From the NCBI GenBank assembly GCA_020073615.1, contig JAIQEX010000078.1:1-32038 (forward strand): a stretch of 32,038 nt of DNA, given 5' to 3'. The stretch's first letter is position 1. Each line of letters begins with the position of its first letter. A program made the translations under genes and the position numbers. Shown piece by piece: positions 8,259-22,599 of the stretch. The stretch is from Terriglobia bacterium (GTDB lineage Bacteria; Acidobacteriota; Terriglobia; Bryobacterales; Bryobacteraceae). The notes beneath the pieces are model-generated. The model saw nothing but the letters and a program-made list of their open reading frames with translations, did no database searches and was not told where the DNA came from.

Positions 8259-9935
8259 TTACTTCGGCTCCTGCAGCTTGACCACGCGATCGGCCGCCAC
8301 ATTCCGGAGCTCCTGAGTAACTCCCGAAGGCCAGCGGATTTCCACCAAATCGGCGGACTTACTCGCACCCAGGCCGAAATGCGTGGGGCCCGCGCTCGAA
8401 GATCCATATCCGGCGGCGAAGGAAACGTGATTGTACTGAACGGCGCCTCCGGCGGTCACTTTGATGCGGGCTCCGATCGCATCGCGATTGCTCCTGGTTC
8501 CACGCAGCTCGAACTCCAGCCAATGCCCGCCGCCCGGGCTGTCGTTGAACCAGAGTTCGGCGGGTGCACCGATGGCGGCCGCCACCACGTCCAGGCGGCC
8601 GTCGCCATTCAGGTCCGCGGCCGCCGAGCCCCGATGGCGGCCGGGCGGCCGTGCCGTCAAACCGGCTTCGGCGGTGAGCGCCTGAAACCGCGTGCCGCCC
8701 AGGTTCCGGAACACGGTGTTGGGCTGCTCCACCTGCACGCGCGATCCGTATCCCAGCGATTGAACGTGGCCGCGCGTCACAAAAATGTCCTTCCAGCCGT
8801 CGTTATCGAAATCGGCGACGGTCGGAGAATAGCCGGCCATCGAGACGCTGAGACGGGCCATGCCGCTGGCGCCGGTGACGTCGGCGAATCCGCCCTTACC
8901 CAGATTGCGGAACAGCGGGAAGGTCTCGTTGTCGAGCGCCACGAAAGCGATATCCGGCAGGCCGTCGTTGTCGAGGTCCCGGAAGTCCACTCCCATCCCC
9001 GAAATGAACTGTCCGTTCTCGGTGAGCGCCACGCCGGCATCGAACGCCACCTCCTGGAACTTCGCGCCGCCCTGATTGTGGAACAGCGAATTGTCCATCT
9101 TGTCGTTGGCGACGAACAGATCCATCCAGCCATCCAGGTCGTAGTCCGCGATGCCCACACCCATGCCCTTGCCGGGATGGGCGCGGATTCCCGATTCCGC
9201 GGATACGTCGCGGAAGGTTCCGTCGCCGTTGTTTAGGAAGAGCTGGTTGGGGGTCGGCTTGTAGAACTTCGGATGACAGTAGTCGAGCTTGCCCGGTCCC
9301 GCTTCGCAGGCCGGTTCGGTGGCGAAGTCCCAAGCCAGGTAGTTGACCACAAAGAGGTCCAGCAGCCCGTCGTTGTTCACATCGAGCCAAGCCCCGCCCA
9401 CCGACCACAGGGGGCCGTACTGGCTGTCCGACCGGTTGAGCCCCGCCTTCGCCGTGACATCGGTGAACGTGCCGTCTCCGTTGTTATGGTACAGGCGGTT
9501 GCCATGGACGCCGCCAATGAAAATATCCTTGTAACCGTCGTTGTCGTAGTCGCCGATGGCGACCCCGTTGTCGAAGCCCACGCCCGCCAGGCCGGCCTTG
9601 GCGGTGACATCTTTGAAGTTGCCCTTGCCGTCGTTTTCGAAAAGCCGGTTGGAGTACTTGGGCGAGCTCTTTTTCAGCGTCTGGATATCGGCTCCGTTGG
9701 CGAAGAACACGTCCAGGTAGCCGTCGTTGTTGTAGTCGAAAACCGCGACGCCGCCGGCCATGGTTTCCGGTGCATGGCGCCGCGGCGTCTCGCAACTCTC
9801 GAGCTGGAAATCGATCGGCCGAAACGCGAAGTGGATGGGTGCTTTAGCGTCCTGGCCGGAAGCGATGGCCCAGGCAGCGGCCAGCACTACGGCCAGCGCC
9901 CAAACCGTGTGGAACCGGTGCGGCAATCTACTCAT
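8259..9935 (-). CDS. Secreted FG-GAP repeat protein with C-terminal ASPIC/UnbV domain (CRTAC1-like)
   Basis: 558 residues from ATG 9935. The N-terminus (MSRLPHRFHTVWALAVVLAA, ending near SGQD) is a signal peptide. At least seven FG-GAP/VCBS blades follow, each with a DxDxDG calcium-type loop: DYNNDGYLD, DYDNDGYKD, DVNNDGLLD, DYDLDGWMD, DLDNDGLPD, DFDNDGWKD and DLNGDGRLD. The last 80 residues are an ASPIC/UnbV domain (NRDAIGARIKV, then HFGLGASKSADLVEIRWPSG). The predicted fold is a secreted integrin-like beta-propeller; the biochemical role of the bacterial CRTAC1 family is not established. The ATG overlaps the stop of the upstream TPR gene (ATGA), so the two are co-translated. A same-frame open stretch continues upstream of 9935 but is a shadow of the TPR gene, so the signal peptide fixes the start. 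A paralogue lies at 14387. Confidence 0.9.
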   Translation of the reverse strand: MSRLPHRFHTVWALAVVLAAAWAIASGQDAKAPIHFAFRPIDFQLESCETPRRHAPETMAGGVAVFDYNNDGYLDVFFANGADIQTLKKSSPKYSNRLFENDGKGNFKDVTAKAGLAGVGFDNGVAIGDYDNDGYKDIFIGGVHGNRLYHNNGDGTFTDVTAKAGLNRSDSQYGPLWSVGGAWLDVNNDGLLDLFVVNYLAWDFATEPACEAGPGKLDYCHPKFYKPTPNQLFLNNGDGTFRDVSAESGIRAHPGKGMGVGIADYDLDGWMDLFVANDKMDNSLFHNQGGAKFQEVAFDAGVALTENGQFISGMGVDFRDLDNDGLPDIAFVALDNETFPLFRNLGKGGFADVTGASGMARLSVSMAGYSPTVADFDNDGWKDIFVTRGHVQSLGYGSRVQVEQPNTVFRNLGGTRFQALTAEAGLTARPPGRHRGSAAADLNGDGRLDVVAAAIGAPAELWFNDSPGGGHWLEFELRGTRSNRDAIGARIKVTAGGAVQYNHVSFAAGYGSSSAGPTHFGLGASKSADLVEIRWPSGVTQELRNVAADRVVKLQEPK

Positions 9936-10966
9936 GGAACCTGCTCGATGCGCCGTCCCGGCACTTTGATGAGCGGCGCCGCCTGCTCCTCCTGGGCCAT
10001 CTCTTTCACCTTGGCGAACTCGGCGGCCGCATCCGCTTCGCGGCCCAGGGAACGCCACAGCCGGCCGAGACGGTAATGGGCGTCGGGCTTCGATGGATCG
10101 AGCCGGATCGCCTCCTTCAAATGACGGGCAGCTTCGGCGGAATCGGCCTTGCCGGAAAGAAGGATGCCAAGATCCAGATGTGCCAGCCGGATGTTCGGAT
10201 CCAGGCTCAGCGCCTTCCGCAGATGCTCCTCCGCTGCTCTCTCGCTTTCCGAATGCATTTCGGCGTCGCCCAGATAGGTCAGCGCTTGCAAGTGCTGCGG
10301 ATGATGCGCCAGCTCCGCCTGAAACTCGCGGCACGCCTCTTCGAAACGCTTCTGTTTCCAATAGAGGTATCCCAGGCTGAAGTGGACCTCGGGCTCGAGC
10401 GGCGCTGCTTTTACCGCGGCTTCGAACTCTGCGGTCGCCGGCTCCGCCTGGTTGGCGGCATCGAGCACCTCGCCCAGTAGCATGTGGACGGGCCCCGAAT
10501 CCGGGTCCTTGGTGAGCAGAAACCGGAATTCCCCGATGGCTTCCTGGTACTGCCCCGACCACAAGTAACTTTGCGCCAGCTTATAACGCAATTCCACGTT
10601 GTCGGGCTGCTGCGCGGCCGCGCGCTTGAGTTGGGCGGCGGCAGCATCGAATCGGCGGCAGCCATAGTAACTCATGCCCAGTAACACGCTGGCCTGAAAG
10701 CTGGACGGGTCGGCCTTCACGGCGCGTTCCAGGGCCGACGCGGCATCGGGGAAGCGATTCAGCTTCACATAGGCCAAACCGAGATTCAGATAGATGCCGG
10801 GCAGGTGCGGATCCAGGGCGATGGCGGCGCGGTAGTGCGCGACGGCCGCCTCGTATTTGCCCGCGCGCGCCAGCCCCAGGCCGGCGTTGGCTTCGGCAAG
10901 CGCTCCGGTTTCGGCCGCGGCCCAGGTGCATGCCGCGGATGCGAGCAGGATCACAACGAACTTCAT
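9932..10966 (-). CDS. Secreted tetratricopeptide-repeat protein
   Basis: 344 residues from ATG 10966 (MKFVVILLASAACTWAAAE), a short signal peptide. About nine TPR units follow, with typical W/Y-L-G-A-A-Y spacing: NAGLGLARAGKYEAAVAHYR, YLNLGLAYVKLNRFPDAASA, SLGYLYWKQKRFEEACREFQ, HYRLGRLWRSLGREADAAAE and others. TPRs make helical scaffolds for protein contacts; here the protein would act outside the cytoplasm. It is translationally coupled (4-bp ATGA overlap) to the FG-GAP/UnbV gene, and I infer that the two products work together. An in-frame ATG at 10999 would place extra residues before the signal peptide, so it is less likely. The upstream 10967-11088 stretch is shared with the divergent glycosyltransferase gene. 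Confidence 0.88.
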   Translation of the reverse strand: MKFVVILLASAACTWAAAETGALAEANAGLGLARAGKYEAAVAHYRAAIALDPHLPGIYLNLGLAYVKLNRFPDAASALERAVKADPSSFQASVLLGMSYYGCRRFDAAAAQLKRAAAQQPDNVELRYKLAQSYLWSGQYQEAIGEFRFLLTKDPDSGPVHMLLGEVLDAANQAEPATAEFEAAVKAAPLEPEVHFSLGYLYWKQKRFEEACREFQAELAHHPQHLQALTYLGDAEMHSESERAAEEHLRKALSLDPNIRLAHLDLGILLSGKADSAEAARHLKEAIRLDPSKPDAHYRLGRLWRSLGREADAAAEFAKVKEMAQEEQAAPLIKVPGRRIEQVP

Positions 10967-11066
10967 AGAGTCGGTTCCCGGGGCCGCTGTTCCTTCCATA
11001 ATACCGCGCCGCCCCGGCTGCGTCCGGCCCGCAAAAAGAGAACCGGACCTGAAGAACGGACTCACG

Positions 11067-11083
11067 TACAATGGATCAAAGGA
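11067..11083 (+). promoter_or_regulatory. Candidate -10 box and start-deciding SD for the GT-C gene
   Basis: TACAAT at 11067-11072 resembles a -10 hexamer but has no good -35 box 17 bp upstream. AAAGGA at 11078-11083 lies 5 nt before ATG 11089 and favours that start over the ATG at 11071, which has no SD and overlaps the -10-like box. Confidence 0.45.
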
Positions 11084-11088
11084 TACCA

Positions 11089-12975
11089 ATGCCTGCCCGC
11101 TCCGGCGCTTCGATCCTGGCGTTTCTGCTGCTCGCGCTCCTGTTCCTGCTGGCCGGGGGCGCCACCCTCCGCGAGTCCGTCACCATCGATGAGGTGGCGC
11201 ACATCGGCGCCGGGGTCAGCTACCTCCAGAAACTCGATCTGCGCTACAACGAAGAGCACCCGCCGCTCGCCAAGGTGCTGGCGGCACTGCCCCTGGTGGC
11301 GCGCGGAACGCACGCCGACTATTCCGGCGCCATCTGGAACAACAGCCGCGAATTCTTTCCGGCCTTCCTGGGGGAATGGGTCTTCGGCGAGTATGTTCTG
11401 ACGCGCTGGAACAACCCGCAAAGCACGCTCGCCTGGGCAAGGCTCCCCATGCTGCTTCTGACGCTCGCCCTCGGCTGGCTGGTGTTCGCCATCGCGCGCC
11501 GCATAGGCGGAGACTGGGGCGGGCTGCTCTGCCTGGCGGTGTATGTCAGCACCCCCGTGTTTCTGGTCTTCGGCCCCCTGGTGCTGACCGACATTGCCAT
11601 CACCTTCTTCTCCCTGTTGGCGCTATGGGCGCTGGCCGGGATGTGGGACAGTCCCGACCGTAGGAACACCCTCCTGATGGCGCTGGCGCTGGCCGGGGCG
11701 ATTCTCACGAAGTTCACGGCCGCCATTCTGTTCCTGGCCTTCGTGGCGGTGGCGCTGAGCACGCGCTGGCGCCCGCTGGCGGGGCAACCCGCCGCGAAGG
11801 CCGAGGCCCGCCAATGGCGCCGGTTGCGCTGGCGCGCCATGCGGAAGGCAACGTGGTGGGCCGCGCTGGCCGTGTACGCGGTCTACTTCATCCTGTCGTG
11901 GAACCAGCCGCTCGACATTCCGGGCCTGGCCGGTCACGGTCCTCTGGCCGCCCTTCTGGGACGCCTGCTGATGCCGCCCTGGCTCTTTCTGCGGGGATTG
12001 GCGCTGATGGTGCTCGGCGGAAACCGGGCGACCTTTATTCTCGGGCATGCATACCCCCATGGGATCTGGTTCTACTTTCCCGTCCTGTTCGTTTTGAAGT
12101 CTCCGCCCGGCTTTCTCGTCCTGCTGGCCGCCGCGCTGTCGGTGGCGTGGATCGCGAAGCGGTCAGGCCGGCCCCCGGTAATTCCGGCGGAGTGTGCCAC
12201 GCTGTGGCGCGTGCTCTGGGTTTCGCTGGTGGTATTCACGGGGATTTGCGTGCTGGGCCATTTCAACGTCAGCATCCGGCATTTCACCATTCCCCTGGCA
12301 TTGTCGATTCTGCTGCTGGCGCCGCTGCCGAGGCTGCTGGGGCGCTTCCGGACGGCCGCGCCGAAACTGGCGTGGGCCTCCAGCGCGCTGGTGGCGCTCG
12401 CGGCCGCCAGTTGCCTGGTGACGGCCGTGCGCGCCTATCCAAACTACTTCCCCTATATCAGCCCGCTCGGCTGGGGGCATCCCGCGTACTGGCTGGTCAA
12501 CGACTCGAATCTCGACTGGAACCAGGCCCTTCCCGAAGTGGAGCGATTCGCCCGGCAACGCGGTCTCAAAGACGTCCCCGTGGACATCTACGGGTTTTCG
12601 GATAACACTGCCGTCGTGCCGCAATCGCGGTTGTGGGATTGCCAGGCGCCCGCGGCGGCGGACGCCGGCCTCTGGGCGGTGGTCTCGGCAAACATGATCC
12701 TCGATGGCCACAACTGCATCTGGCTGATGCAGTATCCGCATGAAGCCCTGGCCGGCGGCAGCATGTTCGCCGTACACCTTCCGGCGGCGATTCCGCCCGC
12801 CGGCACCCCCGGAGGGCCGCCACCCGTCGAGGCTCGGCGGCTGTTCCTGGGGTTTCCATTTGAGATGCGCCAGATGTTCCAGGGACTGGTGCGGCGTCCC
12901 GAGGATATCCCGAAGGTGTATGCGGACATGCGGGCGGAGTGGGAGAGGCAGATGCAGGCCAAAAAGAAGAAGTAG
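11089..12975 (+). CDS. GT-C membrane glycosyltransferase (ArnT/PMT-like, lipid-carrier dependent)
   Basis: 628 residues from ATG 11089, chosen on the AAAGGA SD. One N-terminal membrane span is followed by the loop TIDEVAHIGAGVSYL and YNEEHPPLAKVLAALP. These acidic and HPPL motifs are typical of the first extracytoplasmic loop of ArnT/PMT-type GT-C enzymes, where the Asp/Glu is catalytic. Roughly ten more hydrophobic spans follow to about residue 440. A soluble C-terminal part begins with YWLVNDSNLDWNQALPEVER, a segment I know from this family, and ends in a Lys-rich tail (QAKKKK). The enzyme would transfer a sugar from a polyprenyl-phosphate carrier to a lipid or protein on the outer face of the inner membrane; donor and acceptor are unknown. 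It is separated by 83 bp from the next operon. Confidence 0.85.
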   Translation: MPARSGASILAFLLLALLFLLAGGATLRESVTIDEVAHIGAGVSYLQKLDLRYNEEHPPLAKVLAALPLVARGTHADYSGAIWNNSREFFPAFLGEWVFGEYVLTRWNNPQSTLAWARLPMLLLTLALGWLVFAIARRIGGDWGGLLCLAVYVSTPVFLVFGPLVLTDIAITFFSLLALWALAGMWDSPDRRNTLLMALALAGAILTKFTAAILFLAFVAVALSTRWRPLAGQPAAKAEARQWRRLRWRAMRKATWWAALAVYAVYFILSWNQPLDIPGLAGHGPLAALLGRLLMPPWLFLRGLALMVLGGNRATFILGHAYPHGIWFYFPVLFVLKSPPGFLVLLAAALSVAWIAKRSGRPPVIPAECATLWRVLWVSLVVFTGICVLGHFNVSIRHFTIPLALSILLLAPLPRLLGRFRTAAPKLAWASSALVALAAASCLVTAVRAYPNYFPYISPLGWGHPAYWLVNDSNLDWNQALPEVERFARQRGLKDVPVDIYGFSDNTAVVPQSRLWDCQAPAAADAGLWAVVSANMILDGHNCIWLMQYPHEALAGGSMFAVHLPAAIPPAGTPGGPPPVEARRLFLGFPFEMRQMFQGLVRRPEDIPKVYADMRAEWERQMQAKKKK

Positions 12976-13058: not shown

Positions 13059-14390
13059 GTGCTGGCGCGTAAACTGCGGATAAATCGGCCTGTTTTCATC
13101 ACCGTCAGCCTCGGGTGCGCGATCCTCGGTGCGGGATTTGGCGCAGATGTGGGGAAACCGGAGACTGCCCTGGCGTATCTATTCACGGAAACGCCCCGCT
13201 ACGAGCCCAAGGCCTGGCTGGAGGGCCGGGACCGCTTTCCGGCAGGCGCCACCCTGAAACTCGTTTTGGGGCAGACGCGCCGTGTGGTCGCTCCGGGGTT
13301 CCACGCCTCGGCGGACGCGGCGGTCTCCTACGATGGCGCCCGCGTGTTGTTCTCGGGGAAACGTACGGCAGCCAGCCGCTGGCAGGTTTGGGAGGCTGAC
13401 ATCAACGGGGGATCGCTGCGGCAGATCACCCACTCCGAGTCCGATTGTATCCGGCCGTTGTACCTGCCCACCGGGGAGGTCGTGTACACGCGCACCGGCG
13501 CGGACGGAGCCGGGATCGAGATTGCCGGGAAGAGCCTGACGTTCGCACCGGGCAGGTTCCTGACCGATGACGTGCTCCGCGACGGCCGCATCCTGTTCGA
13601 GCGAGGGCGGAACCCGGGCAGCCGCGAGCTATTCACGGTCTACCCGGACGGCACCGGCGTGGAAGCGCTCCGCTGCGATCACGGGCCGGACCGCGGAGAG
13701 GCCCGGCAGATGGCCTCGGGGGATGAGGTGTTTCGCTCCGGCGGCCGGCTCGCCAGATTCACGTCGGCGCTGGCCGTTCAGACCGATGTTGCCCAGCCGG
13801 AGGGCGAAGGGACCGGACCGGTGGCCGAGATTTCTCCGGGCGTCTGGCTGGTGAGCCTGCGCGAGGACGCGGGCCGCTTCGGCCTGTACCGTTGGGACGC
13901 GGAGAGCCGCCGGACGGCGCCGCTCGAGACCCCGAAAGACGCTTCCGCGGTACAGCCGGCCATAGTGGCGCCCCGGATTCCGCCTCGGGAATTTCCGTCC
14001 GCCTTGGTGCCCACGCGAACCGCCGGGAACCTGCTTTGCCTGAACTCGAGGGTTTCGCGAACGCCGATGGAGGGAGCCGCGGTGCGTGCCGTCCGCATGT
14101 ACACGCAGAACGCCGATGGCCAGCCCGCACTCCTGGGCCAGACCCCGGTGGAAAGCGACGGGTCCTTCTACATCCAGGTTCCCGGCGACCGGCCCTTGCG
14201 CATGGAACTGACCGATGCCGCGGGCCAAACGGTGCGCAGCGAGCGGGGCTGGTTCTGGATGCGCAAGGGCGAACAGCGGATTTGCGTGGGTTGCCATACC
14301 GGGCCGGAGCGCGCCCCGGAAAACAAGGTGCCGGAGATCCTGCTGAAGACCATCGTGCCGGTGAAAATGCTGGAGGTGCAGCAACCGTGA
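13059..14390 (+). CDS. HzsA-like secreted propeller protein with one c-type heme site
   Basis: 443 residues from GTG 13059, where GGGAG at 13050-13054 gives a 4-nt spacing. An in-frame GTG at 13038 would add 7 residues. Residues about 8-30 are a signal peptide. The middle part has TolB/PD40-like blades (AAVSYDGARVLFSGKR, WQVWEADINGGSLRQITHSE, CIRPLYLPTGEVVYTRTG). Near the C-terminus are DGSFYIQVPGDRPLRMEL and GWFWMRKGEQRICVGCH, with one CxxCH (C409, C412, H413). This layout matches what I know as the hydrazine synthase alpha-subunit middle-domain (HzsA-related) family, widespread in Planctomycetota and Acidobacteriota and mostly uncharacterised. True HzsA has two hemes; here only one motif is visible, so hydrazine synthesis should not be assumed. 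First gene of a tightly packed operon; its TGA overlaps the next GTG by 4 bp. Confidence 0.75.
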   Translation: MLARKLRINRPVFITVSLGCAILGAGFGADVGKPETALAYLFTETPRYEPKAWLEGRDRFPAGATLKLVLGQTRRVVAPGFHASADAAVSYDGARVLFSGKRTAASRWQVWEADINGGSLRQITHSESDCIRPLYLPTGEVVYTRTGADGAGIEIAGKSLTFAPGRFLTDDVLRDGRILFERGRNPGSRELFTVYPDGTGVEALRCDHGPDRGEARQMASGDEVFRSGGRLARFTSALAVQTDVAQPEGEGTGPVAEISPGVWLVSLREDAGRFGLYRWDAESRRTAPLETPKDASAVQPAIVAPRIPPREFPSALVPTRTAGNLLCLNSRVSRTPMEGAAVRAVRMYTQNADGQPALLGQTPVESDGSFYIQVPGDRPLRMELTDAAGQTVRSERGWFWMRKGEQRICVGCHTGPERAPENKVPEILLKTIVPVKMLEVQQP

Positions 14391-16000
14391 CCGCGAGACT
14401 CGTGGTGATATCGCTGGCGATTTCGTTCGCCCTCCGTGCCCAGGGCCCCATCCAGTTCGCGGATGCCACGGCGCAGTCCGGCATCAGGTTCACGCACTCG
14501 ACCGGCGCCGAGAAACTGGGTTCGCTGCTGGAGAGCACGGGCGCGGGCTGCGCCTGGTTCGATTACAACAACGACGGCAAACCGGATCTGTACGTGATGA
14601 GCGGGCGGCCGCTGGAGCCGGCCATGCATCCCTATCCTCTGCGCAAGGCGCCGGCCGCGATGCCGCACAACCACCTGTACCGCAACGACGGCAACGGCAA
14701 GTTCACCGACGTTACCGACGAAGCCGGCGTGGCCGGTGAAGGCTATGGCTTCGGGGTGATTGCCGCCGATTTCGATAACGATGGCTACACCGACCTGCTG
14801 GTCACCAGCTATGGCCACGTCACTTTGTACCGCAACCGGGGCAACGGCACCTTCGAGGATGTTACCGCCAAGGCGGGCATGCGGACCCAGGGCTGGGCGA
14901 TCGGGGCGGCGTGGCTGGATTACGATCATGACGGCTGCGTCGACCTGTTCATCGGGCGGTACGTGAAGTTCGATCCCGCGTATCGTTCCTACTATGCCGC
15001 CGACAACTATCCGGGGCCGCTCGATTACGAAGGCGACACCAATCTTCTGTTCCACAACACCTGCCACGGCTCGTTTGAAGACGTGAGCGCGAAATCGGGC
15101 ATCGCACGCTACAAAGGCCGCACCATGGGCGTGACCGCGGCGGATTTCGATGGCGACGGCTATCCGGACATCTACGTGGCCAACGACAAGACCGAGAATT
15201 TCCTGTTTCACAACAAGCGCGACGGCACCTTCGAGCAGATCGCGGTGGAAGCCAATGCGGCGTTCGGCCAGAACGGCGAATCCACCTCCGCCATGGGGCC
15301 GGTCTTCTTCGAGATCGACAACGAAGGCCGGACGGACCTGTGGGTGAGCGACTCCAAGTACAACCGGCTGCTCAAAAACGACGGCAAGCTGGGATTCACC
15401 GACGTTACCCAGGCAGCCGGCATCTCGCAGTGGTCGGCGCAGTACACCAGTTGGGGAACGGGCATCTACGATTTCGACAACGACGGGCGCAAGGACATCC
15501 TGATCTTCCACGGCGGCCTGATTCACATGGTGCCGCAGGAACATTCCCTGTTCCGGAACCTGGGCGGAGGGAAGTTTCAGGACGTCTCCACCACCGGCGG
15601 ACCCTTCTTCGGGGTGAAGAGCGTGGGCCGGGGCGCGTGCTTTGCCGACTACGACAACGACGGCAAGGTGGACGCGTTTCTGGTCAACCTGGGTGCGCCC
15701 GGGGTATTGCTGCACAACGAGACCGCGGCGGGCGCGCACTGGCTGGCGGTCCGGCTGATCGGGAGCAAGAGCAATCGCGACGGCATCGGCGCCACGGTGG
15801 AAGTCGAGGCTAACGGAATGCGCCAGAAGTCCGAGCGAGTGGCGGGGTCGGGCTATCTCGGGCAGGACGACTGGCGCCTGCACTTTGGGTTGGGAGCCGC
15901 GGGCAAGGCCGGGCAGGTCGTGGTGACCTGGCCCAGCGGCGCCAGGCAGGTGTTGAAGAACGTGCCCGCCGATCGAGTCGTGGAGATTCGGGAACCGTAG
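14387..16000 (+). CDS. Secreted FG-GAP repeat protein with C-terminal ASPIC/UnbV domain, operon copy
   Basis: 537 residues. The start is the GTG at 14387, which shares GTGA with the preceding stop; a GGAGG lies about 10 nt upstream. The signal peptide is VTARLVVISLAISFALRAQG. Seven propeller blades carry DxDxDG loops (DYNNDGKPD, DFDNDGYTD, DYDHDGCVD, DFDGDGYPD, DFDNDGRKD, DYDNDGKVD, and a degenerate EIDNEGRTD). The C-terminal UnbV/ASPIC domain has NRDGIGATVEVEANG and HFGLGAAGKAGQVVVTWPSG. It is a paralogue of the minus-strand protein at 8259, but its partners here are heme proteins rather than a TPR protein. The function of bacterial CRTAC1-like proteins is unknown; the operon suggests it scaffolds or matures the neighbouring periplasmic redox proteins (inference). 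Confidence 0.9.
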   Translation: MTARLVVISLAISFALRAQGPIQFADATAQSGIRFTHSTGAEKLGSLLESTGAGCAWFDYNNDGKPDLYVMSGRPLEPAMHPYPLRKAPAAMPHNHLYRNDGNGKFTDVTDEAGVAGEGYGFGVIAADFDNDGYTDLLVTSYGHVTLYRNRGNGTFEDVTAKAGMRTQGWAIGAAWLDYDHDGCVDLFIGRYVKFDPAYRSYYAADNYPGPLDYEGDTNLLFHNTCHGSFEDVSAKSGIARYKGRTMGVTAADFDGDGYPDIYVANDKTENFLFHNKRDGTFEQIAVEANAAFGQNGESTSAMGPVFFEIDNEGRTDLWVSDSKYNRLLKNDGKLGFTDVTQAAGISQWSAQYTSWGTGIYDFDNDGRKDILIFHGGLIHMVPQEHSLFRNLGGGKFQDVSTTGGPFFGVKSVGRGACFADYDNDGKVDAFLVNLGAPGVLLHNETAAGAHWLAVRLIGSKSNRDGIGATVEVEANGMRQKSERVAGSGYLGQDDWRLHFGLGAAGKAGQVVVTWPSGARQVLKNVPADRVVEIREP

Positions 16001-16003
16001 ACT

Positions 16004-17842
16004 ATGCGCAGCGGCATCATCATCGGGCTGGCGGCACTGGGGGCGCTCCTGCTGTCCGGGCAGCCCTCCGCGAAGCCCGGCCGTTATCCCAACCCGATTG
16101 ACGTCGCACTGTCTTCCGACGGCAGCCGGCTGTACGTAGTCTGCGAAGGCACCGATGAACTGGTGGCCGTAGACCCGGTCACCCTGGCCGTGGTTGCGAG
16201 GGTGCGTGTGGGGCACAGGCCGCGTGGGATCGCCCTCAGCCCGGATGGCAGCCGCATCTACGTGACCAACTCCTGGTCCGACACCGTCACCGAGCTGGAT
16301 GGGACGTCGCTGGCGGTCACGCGCACCTTGCCGGCGGGCTGGGAGCCCATCGGCCTCACAGTGGACGCGCGCGGGCAGATCTTGTATGTCGCCAACCGCC
16401 TCAGCAACGACGTTTCGGTGATCGACCTGGCGGCCGGAAGCGAGATCAAGCGGCTGGCGGGCGGGCGCGGCGCCAGTTACCTCGCGGGCGATGGCGCGCA
16501 CGTGTATGTCACGCACATCTACCCCAATGCGGGCAAGTTCCGGACCGAGCCCGAATCCGAGATCACGCGCATCGAAACCGGGCAATCGACCGTCGATGCC
16601 CGGCTGCGGTTGCATAACGTCGCGGGTGTGTCCCATGTGGCTTTGTCGCGCGACGGCCGGCTGGGCATCGCGGCCCAGCTCCGGCCCAAGAACCTGGTTC
16701 CGCTGGCGCACGTGGCGCACGGCTGGGCGTTCGGAGATTCGCTCGCGGTGTTCGGCGAGGACGTAGGCGGCGTGGTGCAGCTTCCCCTGGACGAAATGGA
16801 GCGCTACTTCTCGCTGCCGTTCGGAGTGGCGATCGCCCCCGACAAATCCCGAGCCTACCTGACGGCCAGCGGCTCCGACGAAGTGGCCATCGTGGATTTG
16901 CAGCGGCTGGTGGCCGCCGCGCGCTCGCCCGAGCGGGACACGCTGGCCAACGACCTTTCCGCGTCGGCGCGCTACGTGGTGGCGCGCGTTCCGGTGGGAC
17001 GAAATCCACGGGGAATCGCGCTCTCGAACGATGGCACCCGGTTGTATATCGCCAACCACCTCGACGACACCGTGTCCGTGTTGGATACGGCCGCGGGCCG
17101 GATCGTCGGGACAATCGCGCTGGTCGGCCCGGCCATCGTCGACCCGCAGCGGCGCGGCGAGCGCCTGTTCTATTCGTCGAAATTCTCTTTCCAGCGGCAA
17201 TTCGGCTGCGCGAACTGTCATCTCGATTCCACCTTCGACGGCCTGGCGTGGGACCTGGAGCCGGATGGCTTCGGGGTGGACATTGTGGACAACCGCGCCA
17301 TCGAAGACGTGTCCGAGACGGCTCCTTTCAAATGGAACGGCGGCAATCCCGACCTGTACACCGAGTGCGGTCCGCGCACCGAGCGATTCTTCTTCCGGTC
17401 GCAGGGAATTCGCGATGCCGATCTGAGCGACCTGATCGCCTACGTCGGGTCGATTCCTCTGCGGCCCAACCGCTACCGGCTACCGGGCGGCGAATTGACG
17501 GCCGCCCAGGAACGCGGCAAGGACATCTTCGAGCGCGCGCGGCGCAAAGACGGTTCGCCCATCCCCGAAGAAAACCGGTGTTCCTTCTGCCATTCCGGCA
17601 AGTATTACACCAACCGGCAACTGGCCGACGTGGGCACCGGCAAGCCCACCGACCGTTCGCCGCTGATCGACGTGCCGCACCTGACCAACGTCGCGTACAG
17701 CGCGCCCTATCTGCACGACGGCTCGGCGCGAAGCCTGGAAGAAATCTGGACCGTTTTCAATCCCAAAGATACGCACGGGGTGACCAACGACCTGGTGAAA
17801 GACGAGCTCAACGATTTGATTGAGTACTTGAAAACCTTATGA
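16004..17842 (+). CDS. YVTN beta-propeller fused to MauG/cytochrome c peroxidase-like di-heme domain
   Basis: 612 residues. A signal peptide (MRSGIIIGLAALGALLLSG) leads to a YVTN/YncE-type propeller, about residues 25-370, with repeats such as DVALSSDGSRLYVVCEGTDE, GIALSPDGSRIYVTNSWSDT and GIALSNDGTRLYIANHLDDT. The C-terminal 230 residues are MauG/di-heme peroxidase-like with two c-type heme sites: CANCH (C402, C405, H406) and CSFCH (C526, C529, H530). The second is followed by YTNRQLADVGTG and the closing HLTNVAYSAPYLHDG motif of this family. MauG-like proteins use high-valent hemes for peroxide or protein-radical chemistry in the periplasm; the substrate here is unknown. The order propeller then MauG-like domain is also that of the beta and gamma subunits of hydrazine synthase. 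The gap to the upstream gene is 3 bp, and the stop overlaps the next ATG. Confidence 0.87.
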   Translation: MRSGIIIGLAALGALLLSGQPSAKPGRYPNPIDVALSSDGSRLYVVCEGTDELVAVDPVTLAVVARVRVGHRPRGIALSPDGSRIYVTNSWSDTVTELDGTSLAVTRTLPAGWEPIGLTVDARGQILYVANRLSNDVSVIDLAAGSEIKRLAGGRGASYLAGDGAHVYVTHIYPNAGKFRTEPESEITRIETGQSTVDARLRLHNVAGVSHVALSRDGRLGIAAQLRPKNLVPLAHVAHGWAFGDSLAVFGEDVGGVVQLPLDEMERYFSLPFGVAIAPDKSRAYLTASGSDEVAIVDLQRLVAAARSPERDTLANDLSASARYVVARVPVGRNPRGIALSNDGTRLYIANHLDDTVSVLDTAAGRIVGTIALVGPAIVDPQRRGERLFYSSKFSFQRQFGCANCHLDSTFDGLAWDLEPDGFGVDIVDNRAIEDVSETAPFKWNGGNPDLYTECGPRTERFFFRSQGIRDADLSDLIAYVGSIPLRPNRYRLPGGELTAAQERGKDIFERARRKDGSPIPEENRCSFCHSGKYYTNRQLADVGTGKPTDRSPLIDVPHLTNVAYSAPYLHDGSARSLEEIWTVFNPKDTHGVTNDLVKDELNDLIEYLKTL

Positions 17843-18900
17843 GATTAGCTGTATTCTTCGCCAGTATCGGTCTGCTCGGAGCCGCCGAACTTCCGCGGTT
17901 TCGATGGGAGAACTTCACCACCGCCCAGGGACTGCCCGACAATCGCGTGTACAGCGTGTGCGTGGACGGCGACAAGGTCTGGGCCGGCACCGACAATGGG
18001 CTGGCTCTGTATCAGAACGGCAAGTGGCGGGTGTTCACCCCGGCGGACGGGCTGGCGCATCGCGCGGTGCTGTACCTGGCGCTCGACAAGCAGACCCACG
18101 ACCTGTGGATCGCCACCATGGGCGGGCTCAGCCGCTATTCCGGCGGCCGCTTCGACACCTTTTCCCAGCTCAACAGCGGGCTGCCGAACGACGTGGTCTA
18201 CGGCGTTGCGGCGCACGGTGACTTCGTGTGGGTGGCCACCGCCGCGGGAGGCAGCCGGTTGAACAAGCGCACCGGCGAGTGGAGCATCTTCAACGAGCGC
18301 AACACGCCGATGTACGAGATCTGGACGTACTCCGTGACCGCGGCGGAGGACAAGGTCTACTACGCCGTCTGGGGCGGCGGCGTGCTCGAGTACGACGTCA
18401 AAACAGAGCGCTGGAAGGACTATAACGACCCCGACGGCGAAACCGAGATGGTGCTGTTCAAAGACCAGGGCCTGATCCACGAGATCACGAGTTCGGTCAG
18501 CTACGTCAACAAGATTTTGTGGGTGGCCACGTATTTCGGCGCCAGCCGCTACGACGGCCGCAACTGGCGCAACTTTCTCGAGAAAGACAGCGGCCTGCCG
18601 AGCAATTTCCTGAACCAGGTGAAATCCGTGGATGGCACGCGGACCTGGTTCTCGACCGACAAGGGGCTGGCGTATTTCGATGGCGAACAGTGGGCCACGT
18701 ACCGGCCCGCGCTCGATACCCACGCGCCGGAAATGCTGGTGCGAAACGCCGCGGGCGAAACCAGCCGGGTGGCCGTCGATACGGCCCCCGCGCACAACTA
18801 CATCTTCGGCGTCGAATTGCAGGGCGACGATATTTGGGTGGCCACGGCCAAGGGCCTCAGCCACGGAATCCGGATCAAACAGGAGACTGGAAAACCATGA
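17839..18900 (+). CDS. Secreted two-component-regulator-type beta-propeller protein
   Basis: 353 residues, starting at an ATG that overlaps the previous stop by 4 bp. A signal peptide (MRLAVFFASIGLLGAAE) is followed by FRWENFTTAQGLPDNRVYSV, the hallmark opening of the propeller domain found on hybrid two-component sensors. Blades continue with VWAGTDNGLALYQNGKW, LWIATMGGLSRYSGGRF, VWVATAAGGSRLNKRTGEW, LWVATYFGASRYDGRNW and RTWFSTDKGLAYFDGEQW. Unlike the sensors, it has no membrane span, histidine kinase or other C-terminal module, so it is a stand-alone periplasmic propeller. A ligand-sensing or scaffolding role within the surrounding operon is inferred; I do not know a characterised homologue. 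Confidence 0.85.
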   Translation: MRLAVFFASIGLLGAAELPRFRWENFTTAQGLPDNRVYSVCVDGDKVWAGTDNGLALYQNGKWRVFTPADGLAHRAVLYLALDKQTHDLWIATMGGLSRYSGGRFDTFSQLNSGLPNDVVYGVAAHGDFVWVATAAGGSRLNKRTGEWSIFNERNTPMYEIWTYSVTAAEDKVYYAVWGGGVLEYDVKTERWKDYNDPDGETEMVLFKDQGLIHEITSSVSYVNKILWVATYFGASRYDGRNWRNFLEKDSGLPSNFLNQVKSVDGTRTWFSTDKGLAYFDGEQWATYRPALDTHAPEMLVRNAAGETSRVAVDTAPAHNYIFGVELQGDDIWVATAKGLSHGIRIKQETGKP

Positions 18901-19385
18901 CGATTACTGAAGCGCTCGATCAGATTGGCGGCGCCACCGCGATCGAGAAGCGCGCGATCAACGCGCCGGCGGTGTTGAACGAGGCCTACCACTACGCGCG
19001 TCCAAGCTCGTTCTCGCGCGCGCTGCGCATCGATTTGAACGGCCTGGCGATTCTGCTGATTTCCGGCACCGCCAGCGTGGATGAGGATGGCGCCAGCGTC
19101 CATATCGGCGACTTCCGGGCGCAGGTGCGGCGCACCTACCGGAACATCACGGCCCTGCTCGAGGCCGCGGGCGCCACGTGGAAGGATATCGTGCGCACCA
19201 CCTGCTACCTGCGCGACATCGAGCGCGATTACGCCGCCTTCAACGAGGAGCGTACGGCCTTCTTCGAGGAGCAGCAGTTGGATCCGCTGCCGGCTTCCAC
19301 GGGCATTCAGGCCATCCTCTGCCGGCCCGAGCTGCTGGTGGAGATGGAAGCCATCGCCATGTTCATTCCGCCGCCCAAGGAGTAA
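18897..19385 (+). CDS. Rid (YjgF/YER057c/UK114) family protein
   Basis: 162 residues. The start ATG overlaps the previous stop (ATGA) and has AGGAGA about 10 nt upstream. No signal peptide is visible, so unlike its upstream neighbours it should be cytoplasmic. The Rid fold is recognisable from ILLISGTASVDEDG, QVRRTYRNITALLEAAGATW, VRTTCYLRDIERDYAAFNEE and the C-terminal ILCRPELLVEMEAIAMF, which includes the conserved Arg-Pro-x-Leu-Val-Glu stretch. Canonical RidA hydrolyses reactive enamines and imines released by PLP enzymes, but many subfamilies have other roles. This one has about 30 extra N-terminal residues relative to RidA (about 130 residues). Its place between periplasmic redox proteins and a DAHP synthase hints at handling a reactive amine or imine (inference). 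Confidence 0.88.
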   Translation: MTITEALDQIGGATAIEKRAINAPAVLNEAYHYARPSSFSRALRIDLNGLAILLISGTASVDEDGASVHIGDFRAQVRRTYRNITALLEAAGATWKDIVRTTCYLRDIERDYAAFNEERTAFFEEQQLDPLPASTGIQAILCRPELLVEMEAIAMFIPPPKE

Positions 19386-19387
19386 TT

Positions 19388-21208
19388 ATGCGCTGGCAAG
19401 CAGCCGGAGTGGCCTTTCTGCTGGCGGCAGCTGCCGGGGCGCAGCCGCGCACCTGTGCCTGCGGCGCGCAGCCGCCCGGGCCGCCGCCCAACCGCACGCT
19501 GGAGCCCTATGCCGGCGCCCCCGACGACCTGCGGCCGTTTTCGCGCTTCACCAAACCGTACTACGAACACTACACCAAGGAAGTCGAATACAACGGTGCG
19601 GCGCGCGACGTGCCTACGCTCAAGGCCGCGGACGTTTCCGAAGTCGCCATCGGGTTCCTGGGCCCTGTCCGCGAGCACAAGGACGAAGCCCTGGGCCAGG
19701 CCATGCTGCACGGCGCGGAGATGGCGGTGGACGAAGCCAACGCCCGCGGCGGCTACGGCGGCAAGCCGTTCCGGCTCAAAGTTCACAACGACGCGGCATT
19801 GTGGGGAGCCTCGAGCAACGAAATCGTCAAGATGGTGTACGACGACAAGGTCTGGGCCATGTTGGGGTCGATCTCGGGCGATTCCACGCATATCGCGCTG
19901 CGCGTTTCGCTGCGGTCGGAGCTGCCCATCGTCAACAGCGCCGCCACCGATCCCACCATTCCCGAGACCATCATCCCGTGGATTCTGACCTCGATTCAGG
20001 ACGACCGCGTGCAGTCGTATACCCTGGCGCGGCGCATCTATTCGGATCTGGGGCTCAAGCGGGTGGCCCTGTTGCGGGTCAACGAGCGCTATGGCCGTTT
20101 CGGCGTGATCAAGTTCCGCGACGCGTCGCGCCGCCTGGGGCACCCGCTGATCGTGGAGCAGAAGTTCGCTCCCGGCGATGTGGATTTCGCGCGCCAGCTG
20201 CGCGTGATCCAGGATTCGGACGTGGACGCGATCGTGCTTTGGACCGATGCCGCGCCGGCCGGCATGATCCTGAAACAGATGCGCGCCATGGGCATGCGCC
20301 AGCCGGTTTTCGGCGCGGCGAGGGTGGTGGGTGAGGACCTGCTGCGGATCGCGGGCGGCGCGGCCGACGGCCTGGAGGTGGTCTACCCCTTCGACCCCAC
20401 GCGCGACGATCCGGCGTGGGTCGATTTTCAAGAGCGCTTCACCCAGAAGTACGCCGCGCCGGTGGATTCCTTCTCGGCCCTGGGCTACGACACCATGAAC
20501 ATCCTGCTGGACGCGATCTGCCGTGCGGGCCTGAACCGCGCGGTCATCCGCGACGCCCTGTACGGACTGGAGCGCTACAAGGGCGTGACCGGCGAGATGA
20601 TCTTCGATCCCAACGCCAAGAACATCGCGCCCCTGTTTCTGGGAACGGTCAAGAGCGGCAAGCTGACCTTCCGCCGCTACAGCATGGAGCGGCCTTATGC
20701 CAATCTGCGGGAGCACGCGGTGGAGTTCGCCGGTCCGCCGGCGGAGGACGTGAGCGGGCAGCCGTTGACCATCGGACTGTTCGGGCCGCAAGCCGACAAA
20801 TTGGCGGCGTCGCTCGCAGCCACCGGCTACCGCATCGTGGGCATACCTTCGGAGGCCTCGTGGGGCAAGTCGTCCACGGACCTGGTGAACCTGGTGTACC
20901 AGCAGAACGCCATCGGACTGATTGCCACGGACCGGGCAGCCGCCCACCTGGCCGAGCAGATTGCGGTCAAGACATTTCTGCCGGTCATCGCCTTATCGGC
21001 GGACCGCAAGCTGACCTCCACCAACATTCCCTGGATCTTCCGCCTGGATGCGGACACGCCCGTCTCCGCGGCCGTGGATTGCCTCATCGACGCCGCGCGC
21101 CACGCCGGGCCCAATCGCGGACGGATCCGCGAATACCTGGCGTCGGGAAATCGCGTGGGGGGCAAGTTCGCGTTCGATTCGACCGGTGAGCCGCGCGCCC
21201 GGCCATGA
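19388..21208 (+). CDS. LivJ-like periplasmic substrate-binding protein with partial internal duplication
   Basis: 606 residues, starting 2 bp after the Rid stop. The signal peptide ends near AAGAQP. Residues about 83-430 form a type I periplasmic-binding (branched-chain amino acid receptor) fold: VAIGFLGPVREHKDEALGQA, MLHGAEMAVDEANARGGYGG, SSNEIVKMVYDDKVWAMLG and SFSALGYDTMNILLDAICRA. Residues about 455-606 repeat part of the N-lobe (LTIGLFGPQAD and SWGKSSTDLVNLVYQ) and end with a truncated copy of the domain terminus (GGKFAFDSTGEP). No permease or ATPase gene is present, so it may be a sensing or carrier protein rather than part of a complete importer. Substrate unknown. LivJ-like and YVTN proteins also flank PQQ-alcohol dehydrogenase systems, but no quinoprotein gene is visible here. 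Confidence 0.85.
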   Translation: MRWQAAGVAFLLAAAAGAQPRTCACGAQPPGPPPNRTLEPYAGAPDDLRPFSRFTKPYYEHYTKEVEYNGAARDVPTLKAADVSEVAIGFLGPVREHKDEALGQAMLHGAEMAVDEANARGGYGGKPFRLKVHNDAALWGASSNEIVKMVYDDKVWAMLGSISGDSTHIALRVSLRSELPIVNSAATDPTIPETIIPWILTSIQDDRVQSYTLARRIYSDLGLKRVALLRVNERYGRFGVIKFRDASRRLGHPLIVEQKFAPGDVDFARQLRVIQDSDVDAIVLWTDAAPAGMILKQMRAMGMRQPVFGAARVVGEDLLRIAGGAADGLEVVYPFDPTRDDPAWVDFQERFTQKYAAPVDSFSALGYDTMNILLDAICRAGLNRAVIRDALYGLERYKGVTGEMIFDPNAKNIAPLFLGTVKSGKLTFRRYSMERPYANLREHAVEFAGPPAEDVSGQPLTIGLFGPQADKLAASLAATGYRIVGIPSEASWGKSSTDLVNLVYQQNAIGLIATDRAAAHLAEQIAVKTFLPVIALSADRKLTSTNIPWIFRLDADTPVSAAVDCLIDAARHAGPNRGRIREYLASGNRVGGKFAFDSTGEPRARP

Positions 21209-22599
21209 CCGGCTGGTCCCCGGACTCCTGGAGAACGAAGCCCGCCGCGCAGGCGGTTGTTTATCCCTGTCCGGAAGAGGTGGAGCGGGTCGTGGAGCAG
21301 CTCGCCAAGCTGCCTCCGCTGGTCACCTCGTGGGAAGTCCTGGGTTTGAAGTCGCAGTTGGCCGAAGCGGCGCGCGGCGAACGGTTTCTGCTGCAGGGCG
21401 GGGATTGCGCGGAGAGCTTCGCGGCCTGCGACGCGGCCACGATCGCCAACAAGATCAAAATCCTGCTACAGATGAGCCTGGTGCTGGTTCATGGAGCCCA
21501 AAGAAGGGTTGTGCGCGTGGGCCGGTTTGCGGGCCAGTATGCCAAGCCGCGGACCGAGGAATTCGAGACGCGCCACGGCGTCACTCTTCCCAACTATCGG
21601 GGCGACCTGATCAATCGCCCCGAGTTCACGCCGGAGGCTCGCACACCGGACCCCCAGGCAATGCTGCGCGGGTACGAGCGTGCCGCGCTGACCATCAACT
21701 TCATCCGCGCCCTGGTGGTCGGAGGGTTTGTCGATCCGCATCATCTGGACTATTGGAACCTCGACTGGTTGCAGGATTCTCCCATGGCCGGGGAATACCG
21801 CCGGATCGCGCGGATGATCGCAGATTCCCTCCAGTTCACGGAGAGTCTGGTGGGCGGCTACCCGGGCGGCCTTCACGGGATCGACTTTTTCACCAGTCAC
21901 GAAGGCCTGCATCTGCCTTACGAACAGGCGCAGACGCGGCAGGTGCCGCGCCAGCACGGCTGGTTCAACCTTTCGACCCATTTCCCCTGGATTGGGATGC
22001 GCACGGCCGATCCGGACGGCGCTCATGTGGAGTACTTCCGGGGAATCCGCAATCCCATCGGGGTGAAAGCCGGCCCCCATCTGTCCGCGGAGTGCCTGAA
22101 GAGGCTGATCCAGGCGTTGAACCCGGAGCGCGAACCCGGGCGCCTGACGCTGATTCACCGCTTCGGCAGCGAGCGGATCGCCGACTGCCTGCCGCGGCTG
22201 ATCGAGGCGGCGCGGTCGACCGAATGCCCCGTCCTTTGGTGTTGTGACCCGATGCACGGCAATACGCGCACCACCAGCGGCGGCATCAAGACGCGAAACT
22301 TCGATGAAATTCTCAGCGAGCTGGACCAGGCTTTCGAGATCCACCGGGTTCACGGCAGCCGCCTGGGCGGCGTGCACGTGGAGTTGGCGGGAGAAGCGGT
22401 AACCGAATGCGTCGGCGGCGCCCGCGGCCTCAGTGAGGACGATCTGCACCACGCCTATCGGTCCTACCTCGATCCCCGGTTGAATTATGAGCAGGCCATG
22501 GAACTGGCTCTGTTCGCCGCACGGAAGATGAGGGCGCTCAACGGCCAGGCAACCGTCGCCGGAGGGTTCCATCCCCCGGAAGCCCACTCCAGCCGATAA
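21205..22599 (+). CDS. Class II 3-deoxy-D-arabino-heptulosonate 7-phosphate (DAHP) synthase
   Basis: 464 residues, the usual class II length. It condenses phosphoenolpyruvate and erythrose 4-phosphate to DAHP, the first step of the shikimate pathway, in the cytoplasm. Diagnostic motifs are LLQGGDCAESF, RVGRFAGQYAKPR, GSERIADCLP, CDPMHGNT, GGVHVELAGEAVTEC and YLDPRLNYEQA. The four metal ligands expected from the Mycobacterium enzyme map to C68, H351, E393 and D423, all present, so it should be active. Its ATG overlaps the stop of the LivJ-like gene by 4 bp, placing it at the end of an operon of secreted redox and propeller proteins, which is an unexpected setting. It could be the housekeeping enzyme or one dedicated to a pathway; other aro genes are not in the window. 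Confidence 0.95.
   Translation: MTGWSPDSWRTKPAAQAVVYPCPEEVERVVEQLAKLPPLVTSWEVLGLKSQLAEAARGERFLLQGGDCAESFAACDAATIANKIKILLQMSLVLVHGAQRRVVRVGRFAGQYAKPRTEEFETRHGVTLPNYRGDLINRPEFTPEARTPDPQAMLRGYERAALTINFIRALVVGGFVDPHHLDYWNLDWLQDSPMAGEYRRIARMIADSLQFTESLVGGYPGGLHGIDFFTSHEGLHLPYEQAQTRQVPRQHGWFNLSTHFPWIGMRTADPDGAHVEYFRGIRNPIGVKAGPHLSAECLKRLIQALNPEREPGRLTLIHRFGSERIADCLPRLIEAARSTECPVLWCCDPMHGNTRTTSGGIKTRNFDEILSELDQAFEIHRVHGSRLGGVHVELAGEAVTECVGGARGLSEDDLHHAYRSYLDPRLNYEQAMELALFAARKMRALNGQATVAGGFHPPEAHSSR

Follow-up and report, generated by a model that had tools for sequence, protein, structure and literature searches.

A hydrazine synthase-like gene cassette of Acidobacteriota and Bacteroidota with recurrent Rid and DAHP synthase genes

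Hydrazine synthase (HZS) of anammox bacteria, HzsABC, is proposed to reduce nitric oxide (NO) at haem γI and to form hydrazine at the Tyr591-ligated haem αI (PMC12607021), and its β and γ subunits are fused in Ca. Scalindua japonica (PMC12758564). HZS-like clusters that combine a CRTAC1 gene with a fused βγ gene have been sorted into clades I–IV (Hagglund et al. 2025, PMC12758564), and hzsABC-like genes of Phycisphaerae UBA1845 were described in 2023 with the suggestion of a broader enzyme family acting on other substrates (PMC10732223). Clusters of α, CRTAC1 and βγ genes are thus already published without a specific function, and the accessible text of PMC12758564 proposes none for them. Here we describe a related cassette in a 32,038-nucleotide stretch of DNA from a Terriglobia bacterium (Acidobacteriota, Bryobacteraceae; assembly GCA_020073615.1, contig JAIQEX010000078.1), called the window below. 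An original prediction, made from the letters of the window, had proposed an operon of HZS-like parts at positions 13059 to 18900, with fused anammox subunits as its precedent, which Ca. Scalindua japonica provides. We find that the α and βγ proteins of this operon are firmly identified, by sequence and, for α and the β part, by predicted fold, as true homologues of HzsA and of HzsB–HzsC. They belong to a larger gene unit that is new here, and our best current guess at the substrate is a chorismate-derived compound.

The four genes named in the original prediction are found where it placed them, on the + strand and tightly packed, with spacings of −4, +3 and −4 bases. The unit runs on past 18900 into three genes that the original prediction did not include; they encode a Rid protein, a substrate-binding protein (SBP) of type I and a 3-deoxy-D-arabino-heptulosonate 7-phosphate (DAHP) synthase, and are spaced at −4, +2 and −4 bases. 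The cassette of the window reads as follows.

13059–14390, + strand: HzsA-like α protein of 443 residues, with a signal-like N-terminus, a PD40-type propeller, a haem αI domain and one CVGCH motif.
14387–16000, + strand: CRTAC1-type FG-GAP/UnbV_ASPIC protein (PF13517, PF07593) with a signal-like N-terminus.
16004–17842, + strand: HzsB–HzsC-like fusion (βγ), a seven-bladed YVTN-type propeller (residues ~28–370) and a di-haem MauG/CCP-like domain.
17839–18900, + strand: Reg_prop (two-component regulator) propeller (PF07494; best PDB match 4a2l, E 4.5e-18) with a signal-like N-terminus.
18897–19385, + strand: Rid protein of 162 residues (PF01042, 72.5 bits), no signal-like N-terminus.
~19388–21208, + strand: type I SBP (PF13458, 157.3 bits; best PDB match 4gnr, E 2.3e-29).
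21205–22599, + strand: class II DAHP synthase (PF01474, 597 bits, cut-off 27; TIGR01358, 606.6 bits, just under the cut-off of 614.7).

The two Pfam families of the second gene bear out its earlier FG-GAP/UnbV assignment. A stand-alone propeller is likewise present, as a Reg_prop protein; the HzsB-like propeller lies instead inside the fusion. By our own hydrophobicity rule, five of the window products have a signal-like N-terminus and the Rid protein and the DAHP synthase do not. The SBP of the window carries an extra C-terminal part, perhaps a fused second copy; other lineages encode two separate copies.

Failure of the first protein to match the HZS_alpha profile had been named beforehand as a refutation; α scores 59 bits on PF18582 (cut-off 26.6). 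The best match in a phmmer search of PDB sequences is HzsA of Kuenenia (5c2v_A, E 2.7e-15), followed by TolB propellers at E values of at least 0.02. An AlphaFold2 model of α (predicted local distance difference test, pLDDT, 89.8) returns 5c2v_A as the top Foldseek match (E 1.9e-22), and in VIA residues 37–443 of the model align over 402 residues to another HzsA chain, 5c2v_D (Z 32.7), the only one among the 50 matches listed that reaches the α C-terminus. The NCBIfam HZS model for α is not reached (65.1 against a cut-off of 800). As predicted, α has a single haem motif, and it lacks the C-terminal αII haem domain. Four residues beyond the motif His, at the ungapped place of Tyr591, the window and 20 of the 23 relatives found by the Pfam profile (alignment A1, not biased toward the motif pattern) carry Glu. 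The 12 residues that follow the motif His contain no Tyr in 22 of these 23 sequences, nor in any of the 50 of a further alignment (A3), in which the Glu count of 50/50 is biased because the contig scan that supplied it used a pattern of C[IV]GCH plus the four following residues. The strongest PF18582 match of the order sample (E 3.2e-34) lies in another locus, L032 (G118:C387), as a 1373-residue open frame with two CxxCH motifs beside a βγ fragment; this locus may represent a second kind of cluster.

The fusion of a propeller to a MauG-like domain with CANCH and CSFCH motifs is equally evident. Residues 28–363, the whole propeller, match HzsB (5c2v_B, E 8.5e-36), the di-haem part matches HzsC (5c2v_C, E 6.8e-20), and the two motifs fall at C402–H406 and C526–H530. 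The AlphaFold2 model (pLDDT 83.8) has HzsB as its top Foldseek match (E 1.1e-31) and aligns to 5c2v_B in VIA with a Z score of 46.2, the next propeller scoring 36.9. This search speaks to the β part and barely probes γ, because the γ core (~413–463) is modelled at low confidence. The γ domain exceeds the CCP_MauG cut-off (36.5 bits against 25.6), and the specific NCBIfam HZS models are not reached: 184.6 bits against 1250 for the BC fusion (NF052342), 141.2 against 560 for β and 81.6 against 625 for γ. All three subunits thus have homologues by sequence, in keeping with the proposed multi-haem system related to HZS.

We then compared γ residues across 46 aligned sequences, with numbering mapped through the window–HzsC alignment. 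Both CxxCH motifs are kept in 46/46, and the His that aligns with the DMHG His of HzsC (H591 in the window), which we take to be the γII haem ligand, in 45/46. γCys165, the third haem-linking Cys (C455 in the window), is kept in 40/46 and is Asp in six Bacteroidota. The place of γHis144 is occupied by Trp in 46/46 (W444), an interhaem Trp shared with MauG/CCP di-haem proteins, and that of γAsp168 by Thr in 36/46 (T459) and by Asp in none. A similar residue pattern is reported for HZS relatives (PMC12758564). Because Tyr591 and the αII haem are absent and γHis144 and γAsp168 are replaced by Trp and Thr, the HZS relative of this operon is, judged by its residues, not a hydrazine synthase, and the earlier expectation of a different reaction agrees with these missing catalytic residues in α and γ. 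That non-anammox bacteria use the cassette as a genuine hydrazine (N–N bond) synthase would fit the homology of all three subunits and the retained γCys165, but the same residue changes speak against it, the NCBIfam cut-offs are missed by wide margins and the published analysis of relatives reaches the same verdict (PMC12758564); we regard this explanation as extremely improbable and reject hydrazine synthesis itself on the α and γ residue changes. A search of the window genome with PF13447 (HAO family) gave no match, with controls equally silent, and is not used. In metagenomes from soil, a "hydrazine synthase-like" annotation is not necessarily a marker of anammox.

To place the cassette among its relatives, we assembled 118 loci: 37 neighbourhoods from the order of the window, the best 80 of 260 named relatives and the window. 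The named relatives come from a contig scan with the one pattern given above, from which the 80 nearest the query were kept, and 12 loci of the order sample are identical in sequence to loci of the named-relative set. An α gene is called in 117 of the 118; 105 loci are distinct, and 72 of them have at least 1.5 kb upstream and at least 7.5 kb downstream. Genes were called by our own codon-usage script, with rough starts and some genes missed. Counts over the 72 loci are lower bounds, because tblastn shows genes that the caller missed (for example Rid genes in L095 and, on the opposite strand, in L040, and a stretch of βγ in L143).

A sample of 150 genomes from the order of the window contains 34 with PF18582. 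Across the 72 loci, CRTAC1 is called in 70, βγ in 68, Reg_prop in 68, Rid in 61 and at least one SBP in 68, and all six components, α included, occur together in at least 60 distinct loci of Acidobacteriota and Bacteroidota, the latter contributing six of the 72. Seven of the 12 incomplete loci lack Rid only, one lacks a called βγ only and four lack most components. Carriers without a metagenome-assembled genome label include Occallatibacter savannae AB23 (L135) and Acidobacteria bacterium AB60 (L127). Gene order outside this genome, a second test set beforehand, is kept in the Acidobacteriota and Bacteroidota samples; recurring in so many genomes, it is not due to chance. Signal-like N-termini, scored as for the window, are found in 63/114 α, 93/134 CRTAC1-like, 64/103 βγ, 61/91 Reg_prop and 74/113 SBP proteins, and in 5/83 Rid proteins, 1/43 class I and 0/3 class II DAHP synthases. 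Haem motifs in βγ number two or three in 47 of the 72 loci, one in a single locus and six to ten in 20, the gene being uncalled in four; none of 91 Reg_prop members has a CxxCH motif. The forms with two or three haems and those with six to ten keep the same partners, which suggests that one shared process underlies both and that the additional haems transfer electrons in it. Three Bacteroidota cassettes (L147, L148, L153) have a sensor kinase and an OmpR-type regulator just upstream (identified by Pfam for the L148 pair and by cluster for the others), which suggests two-component control there.

The cassette resembles HzsABC (5C2V) in its propeller and di-haem γ domain, and differs from it by its truncated α, its α–CRTAC1–βγ order and its additional Reg_prop, Rid, SBP and DAHP synthase genes. 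The window shares its α–CRTAC1–βγ order, the lack of an αII haem and the lack of extra βγ haems with clade II (PMC12758564), and is likened to it on these features; for clade III, the same paper describes a pair of SBP genes downstream of the cluster. Its main text contains no mention of DAHP, chorism-, shikim-, a regulator propeller or Rid, and its figures or supplements may show a wider cassette. An hzsA-like gene also lies upstream of a fused hzsBC-like gene in Phycisphaerae UBA1845, but that cluster stands beside hao and nxr/nar genes and was read as possible anammox (PMC10732223), whereas the cassette described here belongs to Acidobacteriota and Bacteroidota and includes a putative chorismate-type arm. 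No literature joining hydrazine synthase with DAHP synthase, chorismatase or RidA appears among the matches listed.

The chorismate-type arm is suggested by the Rid protein. In a profile alignment, its residues 53–155 pair with 236–340 of 5ag3, which we take to be Hyg5, and 4bps is matched as well; a 51-residue piece of Rid finds no PDB match. By the 5ag3 offsets, Gly57, Cys142 and Glu149 correspond to positions 240, 327 and 334, assuming no gap beyond Cys142. The active-site acid of Hyg5 is Glu-334, and Nat-hyg5 has CH-II Cys-318 and Glu-325, spaced by seven like Cys142 and Glu149 of Rid (PMC7170507). Compared with the chorismatases FkbO, Hyg5 and XanB2, Rid keeps the Phe and Arg of SF[AS]R, the Gly-Thr of SGTAS and the active-site Cys and Glu. 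Seven residues (Phe39, Arg41, Gly57, Thr58, Cys142, Glu149 and Glu151) are invariant in the 74 cassette Rid proteins compared and in all 12 two-domain chorismatase-like Acidobacteriota proteins examined; the latter were read through tblastn with no motif filter applied and are the best 12 of 58 listed TIGR04444 matches, all below its cut-off. These two-domain proteins (L165–L176) are spread over several Acidobacteriota families. At the place of RidA Arg105, a criterion for imine deaminase activity (PMC5619798), Rid has Ser134, and Ser is found there in 74/74 cassette proteins, which rules out a canonical RidA imine deaminase role.

A DAHP synthase gene lies in the same-strand run in 33 of the 72 loci, of class I in 30 and of class II in three, in one of three placements. 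In Acidobacteriota the class I gene stands before α; five Bacteroidota loci have it between two SBP genes, and in the window, L031 and L050 the SBP is followed by the class II gene. Of 43 class I genes, 12 overlap the gene that comes next. All six class I proteins tested score over the TIGR01361 cut-off and under the KDO8P synthase cut-offs. Six of six match NF006421 only from profile positions 66–87 of 338, whereas six of six other class I-β enzymes match from position 1, so the cassette copies are without the N-terminal domain, which is a feedback site in characterised enzymes. The window genome encodes four DAHP synthases, two class II copies that are 62% identical and two class I copies that are 55–65% identical to cassette enzymes. 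The cassette enzyme is additional in all three Acidobacteriota genomes examined (G150, G151 and G156 have further copies over the cut-off). A DAHP synthase tree did not separate a single from a repeated joining of class I to the cassette; the class II copy is clearly a separate recruitment.

The explanation we favour, tentatively and at somewhat less than an even chance, is that the operon encodes an exported haem complex of HZS type whose substrate, a chorismate-derived compound, is supplied by dedicated enzymes in the cytoplasm. Its steps lose certainty from the assembly, through supply by Rid and DAHP synthase, to export of the product and haem chemistry. The α and βγ proteins would assemble outside the cytoplasm in an HZS-like manner, with electrons perhaps passing from the γII to the γI haem and the extra N-terminal βγ haems feeding γII where they are present. 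In the cytoplasm, the DAHP synthase would raise shikimate flux, and a Rid oligomer with Cys142 and Glu149 could convert chorismate or a close relative into an aromatic product. This product would leave the cell and be held by one or more SBPs, and the γI and αI haems might oxidise or reduce it, with the propellers joining both sites as in HZS.

The chorismate link is circumstantial, and several observations weigh against it. Chorismatases have two domains, whereas the cassette Rid has one domain of 162 residues and scores 30.3 bits on TIGR04444, far under the cut-off of 325. Rid also scores higher on the PF01042 and RutC models than on TIGR04444, one Bacteroidota Rid has no TIGR04444 match at 1e-6, positions 37 and 134 are unlike those of chorismatases, and in a Rid tree long branches separate the groups, with the cassette proteins apart from chorismatases. 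DAHP synthase is not found within range in 39 of the 72 loci, and in none of the 20 loci with at least six βγ haem motifs, although 17 of these 20 have Rid. In the Bacteroidota genomes G152 and G153 the other DAHPS-like gene examined (L182, L184) falls below every DAHPS cut-off, so the cassette enzyme might there be the housekeeping one. Finally, the recurrent neighbours run through Pfam, a subset, include a BBP2 porin and no small-molecule exporter or later aromatic-pathway gene.

The main rival is a role in stress defence, in which extracytoplasmic removal of H2O2 or NO would fall to γ, an oxidation-tolerant DAHP synthase would stand in for the iron enzyme and Rid would act in damage control or as a chaperone. 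The CCP_MauG match and the invariant CCP/MauG-type Trp, whose importance is described in PMC12758564, agree with this, as does the reported sensitivity of E. coli AroG with iron to superoxide and H2O2 (PMC9936198). A stress role does not, however, call for an HzsA homologue, two kinds of propeller and SBPs; the Rid residues are of chorismatase rather than RidA type, and γCys165, an HZS feature, is largely retained, so that we rate defence as unlikely.

The same MauG-like domain and its Trp could instead point to protein modification of the MauG/MbnH kind, the di-haem domain oxidising a partner (α, CRTAC1, the Reg_prop propeller or an SBP) to give a protein-derived cofactor. Two NCBIfam models, MbnH-type at 35 bits and MauG at 16.7 bits, are matched weakly, and a set of exported partners without an assigned role recurs, both in line with this reading; but the expected place of the second-haem ligand holds the HZS-type His (H591), where MauG has Tyr, and both Rid and DAHP synthase are left unexplained. 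This alternative appears to us distinctly improbable. Supply of a chorismate-derived compound to an exported HZS relative remains the reading we prefer.

A bolder extension would make HZS-like complexes in general exported haem enzymes for chorismate-derived aromatics, and would place hydrazine synthase as a late offshoot, re-tooled to take NO and ammonia instead of the aromatic substrate. Were this so, soil Acidobacteriota and Bacteroidota would make or use, through the HZS-like class, an aromatic molecule that is new and either redox-active or N-modified; we consider the two proposals, taken jointly, a speculation with little chance of being right. How hydrazine synthase arose remains open, and the chorismatase-type Rid together with DAHP synthase offers a testable lead on its relatives, and perhaps on its ancestor.

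Other genes recur around the cassettes. The DAHP synthase–α cassette is preceded by an amidase gene in 12 loci (L122, L123, L126, L127, L129–L135 and L140), and an asparaginase gene lies near nine cassettes, mostly multihaem (L045, L049, L051, L056, L058, L066/L150, L152 and L155), two of the nine being the same sequence; both assignments were checked with Pfam on two members each. Genes for ApbE, FGE-sulfatase-like and GFO/IDH/MocA proteins stand beside cassettes L052, L059, L064, L152 and L155, identified by Pfam on the L155 members and by cluster for the rest. In the window itself, positions 8259–11089 on the − strand hold a second UnbV/FG-GAP gene and a TPR gene, divergent from an adjoining glycosyltransferase-like gene; L031 and L050 have the same UnbV/FG-GAP and TPR pair close to their cassettes.

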